Made by a program: the position numbers and the translations under genes. 64,000 bases of DNA. Source: Sulfurimonas marina (GTDB taxonomy: Bacteria; Campylobacterota; Campylobacteria; Campylobacterales; Sulfurimonadaceae). Where the stretch lies: assembly GCF_014905095.1 (NCBI RefSeq), contig NZ_CP041165.1, positions 1,984,001 through 2,048,000 of the forward strand. Reading direction: 5' to 3'. Positions 24,507 through 30,703 of the stretch are shown here, one piece after another (within the stretch, counting starts at the first letter, position 1; every line of letters starts with the position of its first letter). The notes under the pieces were generated by a model. The model saw only the letters and a list, made by a program, of their open reading frames with translations. It did no database searches and was not told the DNA's origin.

Positions 24507-25622
24507 TTAATCATTCAATTTATTCAAAATATCGATAATCTCATCCATTTTATTGCTAACACCGTTAATATCATCAGAGATACTGTTCACATCATCAGCG
24601 TTTTTATTTAAAGAATCTGAACTATCAGAAATTGACTGAATAAGAACATTTGTAGTTGCCGTAGTCTCGGCTAAACTTTTTTGTGTACGCTCTGCAAGTT
24701 TTCTCACCTCATCGGCAACAACCGCAAAACCTCTACCGTGTTCACCTGCACGTGCAGCTTCAATTGCAGCGTTTAATGCAAGTAAATTTGTCTGCTCTGC
24801 AATATCACCTATAGTCTCTAAAATCACTTTTGTTTCATTTGCGTTTTGCACGAGTTCCTGCAGGGCACCCACCATCTCATTCTCTTTTTGAGAAACATTA
24901 TGAATTCTCTCTACAATATCATGGATCATGTTTTTAAAGTCAACTATAGTTGTATTTGTAATGTTTTCGATCGTACTGTTTAAAGTGTTTGCCGATTCTA
25001 TAATCTGTTTGTTAGAATCCTCATTTTTCTGCTGCATACTCTCCAGAGCTTCCCCCAAAGAGTTCACATTGTTTAAAAGCTCTGCCATTTTTGCTTCTAC
25101 ATTTACTTCACTGCGAGCCTGAAAACTCCCCTGTGAAAACTGTTTTAGTGTATATATAGCGTTATCTAAATTTTTCTCTGAAGCATCGAGCATATTATTC
25201 ATACTATTTCTAAGTACATGTACATACGGCGTATCCGTATCTGCATCTATACGGCATGAATAATGCCCTTTTGCAACTTTATCGGCAAGTAAAACCATCT
25301 CTCCTGCAACCCTTGTATCGTCAAGAACCATACTTTGATATCTTTTTATTATTTTATTGAAATTTTGTTCCGCTTTATGCGTTGTATTTTCATTAATATC
25401 AACCTGGTTTCTTTTAAACTCCATCAACTCTAATAACTCTAAACGTTTGCTTTCGAGTAGATCTTTTGAAGCATTCCCTCTCCGCCAATAGAGCACCACA
25501 ACTACAAGAAAAGTTACAACTGTTAAGAGTGCTTGAATAATGTTTGACTCAACAAGGAACAAAGAGGTTAAGGTAAGTACAAACATTACTGTGATTGCTA
25601 TATTTTTTTGCATATTATTCAT
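24507..25622 (-). CDS. CetA-like methyl-accepting chemotaxis protein
   Basis: 371 residues. Two closely spaced membrane helices at the N-terminus (8-26, 30-46) leave almost no periplasmic sensor. A HAMP-like and coiled-coil region follows, then the signalling hairpin with [36 protein letters not shown]. It has no ligand domain of its own and is encoded 11 bases after a lone PAS protein. This is the arrangement of the Campylobacter CetA/CetB energy-taxis receptor, in which CetB senses redox state for CetA. Confidence 0.82.
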
Positions 25623-25633
25623 ATTTGAAATCC

Positions 25634-26017
25634 TTAATTTAGTGTCTTATAAAGTTTTTCGGCAGCTTCTATCTCTGCTTCTGAGGGTTTTCTTCTACAA
25701 GACATATAACGTACCTCTTTTGTTAGGGGATCTTTCATTGGATAGACAGTCGCAAAAACCCAGTAGAAACCGCCCTCTTTTGTTCTGTTTTTCACATAAC
25801 CTGTCCACACCTCTCCCCGTTTTACAGTTGCCCATAGATCTTTAAAAGCAGCCTTTGGCATATCTGGATGTCGAACAATGTTATGGTTTTTACCCATAAG
25901 TTCATCAATTGTGTACCCGGCTATCTTACAAAAGTCATCATTCGCAAATAAGATGATCCCTTTTTCATCTGTCTGGGAAACTAAAAAATCATCACGCTTC
26001 AATACATATTCACCCAC
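25634..26017 (-). CDS. CetB/Aer-like PAS redox sensor
   Basis: A 127-residue single PAS domain. [32 protein letters not shown] is the hallmark of Aer-type FAD-binding PAS domains, followed by [12 protein letters not shown]. With no transmitter or methylation domain of its own, it probably signals through the co-transcribed CetA-like receptor. The promoter region has a perfect FNR box, so production may rise when oxygen is low. Confidence 0.85.
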
Positions 26018-26052: not shown

Positions 26053-26094
26053 AGATTAACAATTTTTTCTTCGAAAATTCTTGATCCGGATCAA
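26053..26094 (-). promoter_or_regulatory. Perfect FNR/CRP-family box and -10 for the cetBA-like pair
   Basis: TTGATCCGGATCAA at 26081-26094 matches TTGATNNNNATCAA exactly and is part of a 16-bp perfect palindrome. On the minus strand, TAATCT at 26058-26053 could be a -10. A start site 7 bases further on (26046) puts the box centre (26087.5) at -41.5, the classical class II activation distance. No -35 is needed in that case. No FNR gene is in the window. Confidence 0.65.
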
Positions 26095-26282
26095 GAGAAA
26101 GAAACTCATTGTTATATTCAGTTAGCACACAGAAAATAATATTTTGAGCATTATAAAGGATCTATTGAAAAATTTGTTCCAAAGAATTTATCAATAAAAA
26201 ACGATTAAACAAAAACCCCTATATTTTAGGGATTTTGAGTAGTATTGGTTACTATTTTATCTATAACAAAAAAGTGATAGAC
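26095..26282. other. AT-rich non-coding gap
   Basis: Between the FNR box and the promoter of the LOV regulator lies AT-rich sequence without a credible gene or a strong hairpin. TATTTTAGGGATTTTGAG and an A/T-rich tract may be upstream promoter elements. I see nothing else in it. Confidence 0.5.
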
Positions 26283-26325
26283 ACTTCTTGGACACTTTTG
26301 GAAACTTTTGTGTTACAATCACTAT
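26283..26325 (+). promoter_or_regulatory. Triple direct repeat and extended -10 for the LOV regulator
   Basis: ACTTcTTGG, ACTTTTGG and ACTTTTGTG begin at 26283, 26294 and 26304, spaced 11 and 10 bp. They run into an extended -10, TGT followed by TACAAT (26314-26319). The start of transcription would fall about 7 bases on, at the A of the ATG at 26326. There is no Shine-Dalgarno sequence, so the mRNA may be leaderless. Repeats at helical period are typical of OmpR-type winged-helix sites, the class of DNA-binding domain this gene encodes. Confidence 0.5.
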
Positions 26326-27048
26326 ATGAAAGAAAGAAACTTTATAAAACTTGCTCAAAACTGTTATTGGGATCCGCATGAGGAGGTCGTTTACCTTGAT
26401 CGTGCAGTAATACCTCTATCTGAAAATAAAACACGTTGTTTAAAGTTATTCATTTACTATAGAGGCAAACCTCTTAAAGATATAGAGATATTCGACTTTG
26501 TATTTAAAGATGATTCGAAAGAGTTTACAAATAAAACTATCCGTTCTCTTATTAGTAATTTAAGAAATAAACTACCTTGTCTTAATATAATCAATCACTA
26601 TGGGGGATTTTACTCTTTGGAAAAGTATCGGGAACCGACTCCCGATTTCCAAGAGTACCTTTTAGATATTCTCGATCAAGCGAAAAACGGTATTACCATT
26701 ACTGATCCAAACCAACCCGATAATCCAATTATTTACGTAAATGAAGCTTTTGCGAGTATGTTTGGATACTCTCCTGAAGAGGTTATAGGAAAAAACTGTA
26801 GGTTTTTACAGGGTGATGACAGAGATCAAAGTGCTCGAGATGAGATAAAAGAAGCTCTTAGAAATCAACAGGAAGTAGTTGCCGTTTTACGTAACTATCA
26901 TAAAAATGGCAACCTGATCTATAATGAAGTGCAAATATCCCCTATTTTCGATAAACACACTTTAGAACTCAAATACTTTTTGGGGATTCAAAAAGATATA
27001 ACTGAACTCCATACCTTGATGTTGAAACTAAAAAAAGAATCTGAATGA
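26326..27048 (+). CDS. Winged-helix/LOV-domain photoreceptor transcription regulator
   Basis: 240 residues from the ATG at 26326. Residues 12-100 form an OmpR-type winged helix (NKTRCLKLFIYYRGKPL, TNKTIRSLISNLRNKLP, INHYGGFYSLEK). Residues 108-230 form a LOV domain with GKNCRFLQG, where C158 would form the flavin adduct. The flavin contacts N190, N200 and Q222 (GIQKDIT) are all in place. It lacks receiver and kinase domains, so blue light would act directly on DNA binding. It overlaps thpR by 4 bases (ATGA). An upstream TTG would add six residues. Confidence 0.85.
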   Translation: MKERNFIKLAQNCYWDPHEEVVYLDRAVIPLSENKTRCLKLFIYYRGKPLKDIEIFDFVFKDDSKEFTNKTIRSLISNLRNKLPCLNIINHYGGFYSLEKYREPTPDFQEYLLDILDQAKNGITITDPNQPDNPIIYVNEAFASMFGYSPEEVIGKNCRFLQGDDRDQSARDEIKEALRNQQEVVAVLRNYHKNGNLIYNEVQISPIFDKHTLELKYFLGIQKDITELHTLMLKLKKESE

Positions 27049-27545
27049 AGCCTCTATTTTTAGCTTTAAAAGCAAAACTTAATGACTATGAAAAGATACA
27101 ATCCGACTTCTCGAAGCTTATTAAAGGGAAATGGGTACCGGGTGATAATCTTCACATTACGATCAACTATTTTGGAGATAAATTCACTCTGGAAGAACTG
27201 CTTGAAAAGCTGCCATCGTTAATTACTCCTGTGCCGGAGCTACAGTTATCAGGTTTGGGCTATTTTGAAAAAAATAAAATATTATATATAAAAAGCGAAG
27301 TGAAGGGACTTACTAGTTTGAGCGAAGCTATCTCTAATGAGTTCTCGCTGCCACAGACAAAAGAGTTTATACCTCATGTCACCCTTATGAGAATAAAAAG
27401 TATTACAGATATAAAGGGATTTAAAGAGATGATTGATAATTATAAAGATGAAGAACTCGGTAGCGTTGCAACAACACCCGAGTTAATGCAAAGTGAGATA
27501 CGCCATCCAGGCGGTGCCGTATATACCTCGCTTCAAAGTTTTTAA
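27045..27545 (+). CDS. thpR: RNA 2',3'-cyclic phosphodiesterase
   Basis: 166-residue 2H phosphoesterase of the LigT/ThpR family, which opens 2',3'-cyclic phosphates on RNA. The two HxT motifs are visible as LHITINYFGD near 37 and PHVTLMR near 110. Its start overlaps the stop of the LOV regulator, so both are made from the same message. Whether light influences RNA repair here is an open inference. Confidence 0.88.
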   Translation: MKPLFLALKAKLNDYEKIQSDFSKLIKGKWVPGDNLHITINYFGDKFTLEELLEKLPSLITPVPELQLSGLGYFEKNKILYIKSEVKGLTSLSEAISNEFSLPQTKEFIPHVTLMRIKSITDIKGFKEMIDNYKDEELGSVATTPELMQSEIRHPGGAVYTSLQSF

Positions 27546-29498: not shown

Positions 29499-29948
29499 TT
29501 ATTTTTCTTCTAAACAAATATTATTTACTATATCTAGTCCTTTTAACATAGATTCATGACTAGCATTAAAATCTTTGAGTTGTGTAATTTCTAAGTATGT
29601 GTCTTTATATTGTTTTTTTGTTTCTTTAGTCCAAGAATTACAAATTGTACTATTATGTTCAATAGGTTTATAAATAGAATAATCTTTATTGCCCAATGCT
29701 TCAAGATAAATACTTGAATCTGCATGTAAAATTAATTTTAAATTTTCTGGTTTATCAAAAAGTAAAATTAAATTTTCTAAACTTGTTAAAGCCCTCATTT
29801 GAAACATACTTTTCACTCCATTGGATGCATTTTTGTATTTTTGAGTATAACAAGCAACCTCTTTTTGTGCTTGTTCATACAAAACAATTGTATAAATATT
29901 AAGACCTATAAGTAACAAAATAATTATTAATAAAATTTTAGTTTTCAA
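29499..29948 (-). CDS. Putative immunity protein for the Rhs tip, membrane-anchored
   Basis: No recognised family. The TTG at 29948 overlaps the Rhs stop as TTGA and follows an AAAGGA by 5 bases, so I take it as the start (149 residues); an ATG at 29999 would overlap the Rhs frame by 55 bases. A membrane helix (ILLIIILLLIGLNIYTIVLYE) is followed by a soluble helical part with three cysteines (ACYTQK, STICNSW, NNICLEEK). Translational coupling directly after a polymorphic-toxin tip is the usual place for an immunity gene; the assignment rests on that context. Confidence 0.6.
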   Translation of the reverse strand: MKTKILLIIILLLIGLNIYTIVLYEQAQKEVACYTQKYKNASNGVKSMFQMRALTSLENLILLFDKPENLKLILHADSSIYLEALGNKDYSIYKPIEHNSTICNSWTKETKKQYKDTYLEITQLKDFNASHESMLKGLDIVNNICLEEK

Positions 29949-30703
29949 TATTTTCCTTTTGAACAGTTCTGAAATTTTAATTCTGCTTGTTTGTGACACA
30001 TATAACCATTTAAACCATTATTTGTAAGTGTACATCTAGCTTTTGCTGCTTGTAATTCATTATAACAATCTTCAAAAGTTTTTTTATCATTTGTTGTATT
30101 TGTATCACAAGTTTTTCCACTCGAATCGTTATCACCCCATGGCCAAATACTTAACCCCTCAGGATCAACCAAATTAACCGTATCCCCTAACACATACCCA
30201 TAAAGATTACTATCCCCACCATTAAAGTCTATCGGGTCTTTAGTAGTCCATTTACCAGTTTGTGGATCGTACTCTCTATAACCGAAGTGTACTAAGTTTG
30301 TGTGTGGGTCTTGTAATCCACCTGCAAATCCAAATGGTATTGTTAAACTTGGATTTGAGTCTTGGAGTATATTACCATAAGTGTCGTATGTTATCTCTTT
30401 TACTATGTTATGGTTTGTATCTGAGATAGCTTTTAGGGTTCCTACTTGATCATAGTGTAAGTAGTAAGTTTCTCCATCTTGAGTCATTGATGTTGGAACT
30501 CTACTATCTGTATAGTTATATCTTTGGATTATGTTGTTGTTTGCATCTAATGTTGCTAGTAGTGTTGTTAGATCTGCCCAAAGGTATTTCTCTGTTATGG
30601 TGCCATCTACTTTTTTAGCTACTCTTTGACCTAATGGGTTGAGTATATACTCTATGGTGTTTGTTGGAGTTACTACTTTTGTAAGTGTTCCTTGTGTGTT
30701 GTA
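29945..30703 (-). pseudogene. 5'-truncated Rhs protein: core end plus C-terminal toxin tip
   Basis: The frame runs without a start from the edge of direct repeat copy 2 for about 250 codons. It opens with YD-type repeats (YNTQGTLTKVVTP, YLWADLTTLLATLDANNN) and continues with GFAGGLQDPHTNLVHFGYREYDPQTGKWTTKDP and DSNLYGYVLGDTVNLVDPEGL, the conserved end of the Rhs core. After DPEGL comes a variable tip of about 68 residues with five cysteines (KTC, EDC, ARC, YMC, QNC), unlike any toxin I know. The frame stops at a TGA exactly at the repeat junction. It is an Rhs 3' fragment moved without its body. Confidence 0.85.

Follow-up and report, generated by a model that had tools for sequence, protein, structure and literature searches.

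The window, a 64,000-nucleotide stretch of the Sulfurimonas marina genome, contains a gene whose product joins an OmpR-type winged helix to a LOV domain (wHTH-LOV; Table 1). We take the ATG at 26326 as its start because relatives align from there and not from a TTG at 26308; the TTG start, proposed by a mechanical list of open reading frames, was dropped. A LigT-type gene overlaps the end of wHTH-LOV and is probably co-transcribed with it in the window genome. This linkage is not conserved, and we rejected a functional connection because the adjacency is lost in a relative with a 98%-identical protein, where two genes intervene. In this relative (genome G099), the intervening genes lie on the opposite strand (150 and 253 amino acids; L056 10041-11251), and the window does not have them at the corresponding position.

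On the other side of wHTH-LOV, a divergent Aer-type PAS gene and an MCP gene are kept beside it in the three closest genomes, a pair that we take to resemble CetB/CetA of Campylobacter. The palindrome TTGATCCGGATCAA in front of the PAS gene probably serves a regulator of the PAS/MCP promoter itself rather than being an operator for wHTH-LOV. Although wHTH-LOV might also act on the divergent pair, we set this candidate aside because the predicted operator lies more than 250 bp away and the PAS gene has its own FNR-like box. A second CetB/CetA-like pair occurs elsewhere in the window genome (L164 1067-1747 (-) and 1900-3000 (+); G000:C1:163500-166500), likewise divergent from a gene for an OmpR-type winged-helix protein, there a REC-OmpR response regulator. 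Farther downstream in the window, a short open reading frame at 29945-30487 (-) contains RHS-type core motifs (FGYREYDPQTGKWTTKDPI) and resembles the terminal part of an RHS protein; a small open reading frame follows it.

Table 1. Features of the wHTH-LOV locus, with positions in the window
Feature	Position	Strand	Basis or remark
MCP-type signalling protein (CetA-like)	24507..25622	-	Downstream of the PAS gene
Single PAS domain, 127 aa, nearest to Aer PAS (CetB-like)	25634..26017	-	Divergent; conserved neighbour solely in the three closest genomes
Perfect palindrome TTGATCCGGATCAA, FNR/CRP-like	26081..26094		Before the PAS gene; at this position in each of the three close genomes; chance expectation per window, 0.27
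Predicted operator, three tandem half-sites: GACACTT (26280), GACACTT (26291), GAAACTT (26301)	26280..26307	+	Comparative sequence
-10-like TACAAT	26314..26319	+	6 nt before ATG; spacing conserved in relatives with wHTH-LOV first in operon
wHTH-LOV gene	26326..27048	+	240 aa plus stop; open reading frame and translation, 36 genomes with this architecture, purifying selection
OmpR/PhoB-type winged helix, residues 1-104	26326..26637	+	Pfam Trans_reg_C, PDB profile matches, model, Foldseek
Linker and A'-alpha helix (helix residues 108-118), connecting the domains	26638..26685	+	Predicted structure
LOV core, residues 121-227	26686..27006	+	PAS_9, YtvA-family model, PDB LOV matches
C158 codon, expected flavin-adduct cysteine in GKNCRFLQ	26797..26799	+	Sequence, alignment of relatives
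C-terminal helix, J-alpha-like, residues 226-239	27001..27042	+	Predicted structure; no domain after it
LigT/ThpR-type RNA 2',3'-cyclic phosphodiesterase	27045..27545	+	4-nt overlap (ATGA) with the end of wHTH-LOV

The initial annotation had proposed an N-terminal OmpR-type winged helix joined to a C-terminal LOV domain, and this architecture is borne out by Pfam, NCBIfam, PDB profiles and structural models. Pfam Trans_reg_C matches residues 29-84 at 26.5 bits, just above its cut-off of 26.2 (the N-terminal fragment alone reaches 28.6 bits), and is also matched by 27 of 29 relatives. A profile built from the relatives and compared with the PDB retrieves CssR, VbrR, other response regulators and ToxR for this region. 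The N-terminal region is confidently predicted to fold as a winged helix (pLDDT 92.7), with the four N-terminal strands, three helices and C-terminal hairpin expected of the OmpR/PhoB type; the modelled helix at residues 69-82 would be the recognition helix. Foldseek searches with this model return SaeR, PhoP, YycF, RstA, PhoB, KdpE and ToxR (TM about 0.75-0.8 to SaeR and KdpE). Pfam finds no receiver domain (Response_reg) and no bZIP in the protein, Trans_reg_C occupying the place of the latter, and there is no transmembrane segment (highest 19-residue hydropathy, 0.44).

The LOV half is recognized by Pfam PAS_9 (E 2.6e-24) and, over residues 113-238, by the NCBIfam YtvA-family LOV model (E 2.6e-45). 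The latter score falls under the model's whole-protein cut-off, as expected because wHTH-LOV has just one domain of that model. The closest PDB sequence matches of the LOV core are a LOV diguanylate cyclase and YtvA (8c05 and 4gcz), and the full-length model matches solved LOV structures. The adduct cysteine and the flavin-contact residues listed in the initial annotation (N157, R159, Q162, N190, N200 and Q222) are all present; the cysteine is missing from all other PAS loci inspected in the window genome (L002-L008). The reading frame stops about 13 residues past the LOV core and carries no LuxR-type HTH C-terminal to it. Residues 101-120, between the two domains, are modelled at low confidence (55-58), and with a pTM of 0.45 for the full-length model the mutual placement of winged helix and LOV is uncertain.

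A search for this domain order in other genomes, suggested at the outset, shows that wHTH-LOV is a conserved family and no isolated oddity. The gene occurs in 32 of 228 Sulfurimonadaceae genomes and in four more from two sister families, giving 36 Campylobacterales genomes with identical domain order and length. Compared with its nearest relative (98% protein and 93% DNA identity), wHTH-LOV has a dN of 0.010 and a dS of 0.39 (dN/dS about 0.03) and is therefore under strong purifying selection. With the same order and length in 36 genomes and this dN/dS, the fusion is not a product of chance. We found no full-length relatives in the viral contigs, phages and plasmids searched, and a mobile origin was rejected on this basis. 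A contig scan with short peptide patterns returned only LOV/PAS relatives with no aligned winged helix, which is weak evidence of absence.

In a maximum-likelihood tree, 34 wHTH-LOV sequences fall on two well-supported sides, clade A (22 sequences, including that of the window) and clade B (12 sequences, including that of G266). Nearly all members of clade A retain Q222; clade B has Tyr or His there (12 of the 34 relatives), and its residue at position 162 is often His or Asn. The adduct cysteine is present in 30 of the 34 and replaced in the other four, by Pro (G193 and G191), Ser (G070) or Ile (G140). Because of these substitutions at the cysteine and at Q222, the usual LOV route of light sensing cannot apply to every relative. 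Two relatives (G022 and G114) have an in-frame stop late in the gene.

The region upstream of wHTH-LOV is also conserved. In nearly all of clade A, GACACTT-N4-GACACTT-N5/6-TANAAT lies right before the gene, followed by 6-8 nt to the ATG. Among 23 relatives (clade A plus G266), 21 have the operator directly upstream with at most one mismatch to a slightly degenerate pattern, compared with a rate of 2e-5 in shuffled upstream regions. Of 492 other upstream regions in these loci, only two differ from the strict motif at two or fewer positions, and these stand before genes of a clade B wHTH-LOV operon. In clade B, the repeat stands before the first gene of the operon and not before wHTH-LOV, with one half degenerate in several members; the repeat thus shifts to the first gene when the gene order of the operon changes. 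Two held-out relatives (G675 and G703) both have the exact repeat and a CheB/CheR gene following wHTH-LOV. The sole perfect GACACTT-N4-GACACTT in the window genome (2.26 Mb) is at the wHTH-LOV promoter, and 18 of the 20 genomes with an exact match to the operator plus -10 element, among 228 family genomes, carry wHTH-LOV.

On this comparative evidence, the repeat looks like the binding site of wHTH-LOV. Its 7+4 bp geometry fits an OmpR-type domain because PhoP of Mycobacterium tuberculosis, a member of the OmpR family, recognizes 7-bp motifs repeated in the same direction 4 bp apart (PMC4832192). The repeat occupies the position expected of a -35 box, suggesting activation, and the ATG stands where the transcript should begin, suggesting that the wHTH-LOV mRNA may be leaderless. 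In relatives, likely further targets are the genes for an MCP (G266) and for a GGDEF protein (G117). We claim no wider regulon in the window genome because the 18 genomic sites with two or fewer mismatches barely exceed the 12 found with a reversed-pattern control, and the near matches inspected lie mostly inside genes.

Related repeats also occur away from wHTH-LOV. In four genomes of the genus to which the window belongs, GACACTTCYGCGACACTT precedes genes for chemotaxis or signalling, cheZ-like ones among them (L161 about 2271, L157 about 2925, L158 about 1994 and 10284, and L159 about 2304); the repeat word precedes chemotaxis genes in G092, G110 and G195, and occurs in a signalling locus of G115. 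As wHTH-LOV was not found in G195 (complete) or in G110 (70% complete), another regulator probably reads the repeat there, and GACACTTCYGCGACACTT upstream of chemotaxis genes is perhaps the site of another OmpR-type regulator.

The window locus has no CheB/CheR-GGDEF operon, whereas wHTH-LOV of most relatives belongs to a signalling operon with CheB/CheR-histidine kinase and GGDEF/EAL proteins. In most of clade A, wHTH-LOV heads an operon and is separated by 2-5 bp from the gene for a CheB-CheR-histidine kinase of approximately 1067 amino acids, which is followed by that for a REC-PAS-GGDEF protein, and in clade B it is the last gene, behind a PAS-GGDEF-EAL protein. Overall, the CheB/CheR-histidine kinase protein is in the wHTH-LOV operon at 18 of 34 loci and a GGDEF-type protein is nearby at 26 of 34. 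Other photoreceptor genes recur in these neighbourhoods. Heme oxygenase and a bacteriophytochrome lie downstream in G079, G070, G193 and G022, and a phytochrome adjoins or is near wHTH-LOV in G090 and G266. Phytochromes are present in just 9 of the 228 family genomes, and in all five family genomes that have both genes the phytochrome is within about 6 kb of wHTH-LOV, as it also is in G266. BLUF proteins are encoded within 6 kb in G076 and G191; neither phytochrome nor BLUF was found in the window genome. In G055, a photolyase gene lies 53 bp upstream of wHTH-LOV; in G076, the distance between the two is 8 kb.

The wHTH-LOV operon of G076 adjoins genes for a photolyase, a BLUF protein and DUF1365-like, amine-oxidase-like, cyclopropane-fatty-acid-synthase-like and lipocalin-like proteins (L065 399-19139). 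This cluster, for which profile checks covered only the BLUF protein and a homologous photolyase, resembles light-induced clusters of other bacteria.

Photolyase genes are more frequent in genomes that carry wHTH-LOV (27 of 32) than in those that lack it (56 of 196; P = 2e-9 in a test that ignores phylogeny). By genus, the proportions with and without wHTH-LOV are 15/19 and 23/116 in g1, and 11/12 and 21/29 in g16 (not significant). The initial annotation had called a light switch unexpected in a presumably anaerobic organism. Both descriptions are weak, given this enrichment and the two heme-copper oxidase subunits and the photolyase that the window genome encodes.

wHTH-LOV is likely to be a light-switched transcription factor, to judge from its domains. 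Because the operons of relatives often contain light-sensor genes and the repeat is conserved where the operon begins, wHTH-LOV probably switches its own operon under the control of light. We assign a probability of about 0.7 to the fuller reading, in which wHTH-LOV would be a blue-light-responsive one-component transcription factor that autoregulates its operon. The LOV domain would bind FMN and, as the intact site suggests, form an adduct between C158 and the flavin in blue light. The linker and A'-alpha helix would relay the signal to the winged helices at the N terminus, probably by light-driven dimerization, and a pair of winged helices would bind the tandem GACACTT-N4-GACACTT at the -35 position. 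Bound wHTH-LOV would then activate, or less probably repress, its own operon, which in the window genome would comprise wHTH-LOV itself and the overlapping LigT-type gene as predicted direct targets. The output is most likely an adjustment of motility or lifestyle and photoprotection because the operons of relatives encode chemotaxis-type and cyclic-di-GMP proteins, sometimes with a bacteriophytochrome and heme oxygenase.

PAS domains of Aer and NifL read the redox state of a flavin, and wHTH-LOV could act on the same operon in this way, as a redox or oxygen sensor whose LOV fold responds to flavin redox state and not to light. Such a role would suit the relatives that keep the gene without the cysteine or Q222, the Aer-type PAS/MCP pair with its FNR-like box that faces the closest loci, and the redox gradients that chemolithotrophs presumably inhabit. 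However, the cysteine is retained in most relatives, the clustering with phytochrome, heme oxygenase, BLUF and photolyase genes is specific to light, and the YtvA-type model fits wHTH-LOV far better than NifL does (154.9 versus 65.7 bits). We consider redox sensing unlikely. Decay, or an accidental fusion with no regulatory function, could explain the late stops in G022 and G114 and the lost cysteines, but is very improbable in view of the low dN/dS against the 98%-identical relative, the uniform length and order in 36 genomes and the conserved promoter repeat.

A different division of labour would leave wHTH-LOV responsive to light and give the operator to another OmpR-type response regulator, with wHTH-LOV acting elsewhere or only modulating that regulator. 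The window genome does encode REC-OmpR proteins with related winged helices, and related repeats precede cheZ-like and other chemotaxis genes in the two genomes in which we found no wHTH-LOV. Against this stand the uniqueness of the perfect site in the window genome, the co-occurrence of the exact operator plus -10 element with wHTH-LOV, and the way in which the site tracks the operon start through rearrangement; we regard a separate reader as unlikely too. Direct autoregulation by wHTH-LOV is thus the reading that we prefer.

Several known systems share parts of this design. Aureochromes of stramenopile algae have an N-terminal DNA-binding domain (bZIP) and a C-terminal LOV domain, and PAL has its effector N-terminal to a C-terminal LOV. 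wHTH-LOV has the domain order of both. Its LOV domain aligns with that of aureochromes (6i21), which differ in being eukaryotic and in using bZIP, and PAL (6hmj) is the best Foldseek match of the full-length model but binds RNA through an ANTAR domain and has no winged helix. ToxR-like proteins also have an N-terminal OmpR-type domain. The winged-helix fold is common to wHTH-LOV, the OmpR/PhoB-family response regulators and ToxR; wHTH-LOV differs from these in lacking a receiver domain and a membrane segment and in having LOV as its input, and its predicted site is a 7+4 bp direct repeat like that described for PhoP (PMC4832192). In sequence, the LOV core is nearest to YtvA and a LOV-GGDEF protein, but YtvA, LOV histidine kinases and LOV diguanylate cyclases have STAS, kinase or GGDEF outputs, whereas the output of wHTH-LOV would be DNA binding.

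The comparison offered in the initial annotation was EL222 of Erythrobacter litoralis, a one-component LOV-HTH protein with light-driven dimerization and DNA binding, which a 2022 review of light-regulated expression in bacteria names as the LOV-HTH factor and which is used in tools (PMC9614035). EL222 likewise combines LOV and a DNA-binding domain on one polypeptide, and the LOV halves align (8a5r, E 2.8e-23). The stated difference stands: in EL222, LOV precedes a LuxR-type HTH, whereas wHTH-LOV begins with an OmpR/PhoB-type winged helix and has a direct repeat as its predicted operator. EL222 is not the sole comparison: aureochromes and ToxR-like proteins also carry their DNA-binding domain at the N terminus, and both are among the structure matches.

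Few natural LOV proteins in characterized bacterial systems bind DNA directly. A literature search, with key LOV surveys outside its reach, returned nothing on an OmpR-type winged-helix LOV factor and no work joining Sulfurimonas with LOV or blue-light photoreceptors. If our reading is true, wHTH-LOV would provide a second blue-light switch that consists of a single protein, one whose promoter is compact and whose predicted operator has the 7+4 bp layout. The natural members without the cysteine or the glutamine form a ready series for studying how LOV signals leave the flavin. More tentatively, and at somewhat less than even odds, we suggest that wHTH-LOV represents a prokaryotic family of light-switched OmpR-type activators, found so far in Campylobacterales alone, with one clade that signals despite having Tyr or His in place of the conserved LOV glutamine Q222 and some members that signal without the adduct cysteine. 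If these members do signal, they would be LOV transcription factors that use non-standard signalling routes in nature and are connected with cyclic-di-GMP, chemotaxis and phytochrome in sulfur-oxidizing bacteria. wHTH-LOV points to light sensing among the sulfur-oxidizing Campylobacterota.
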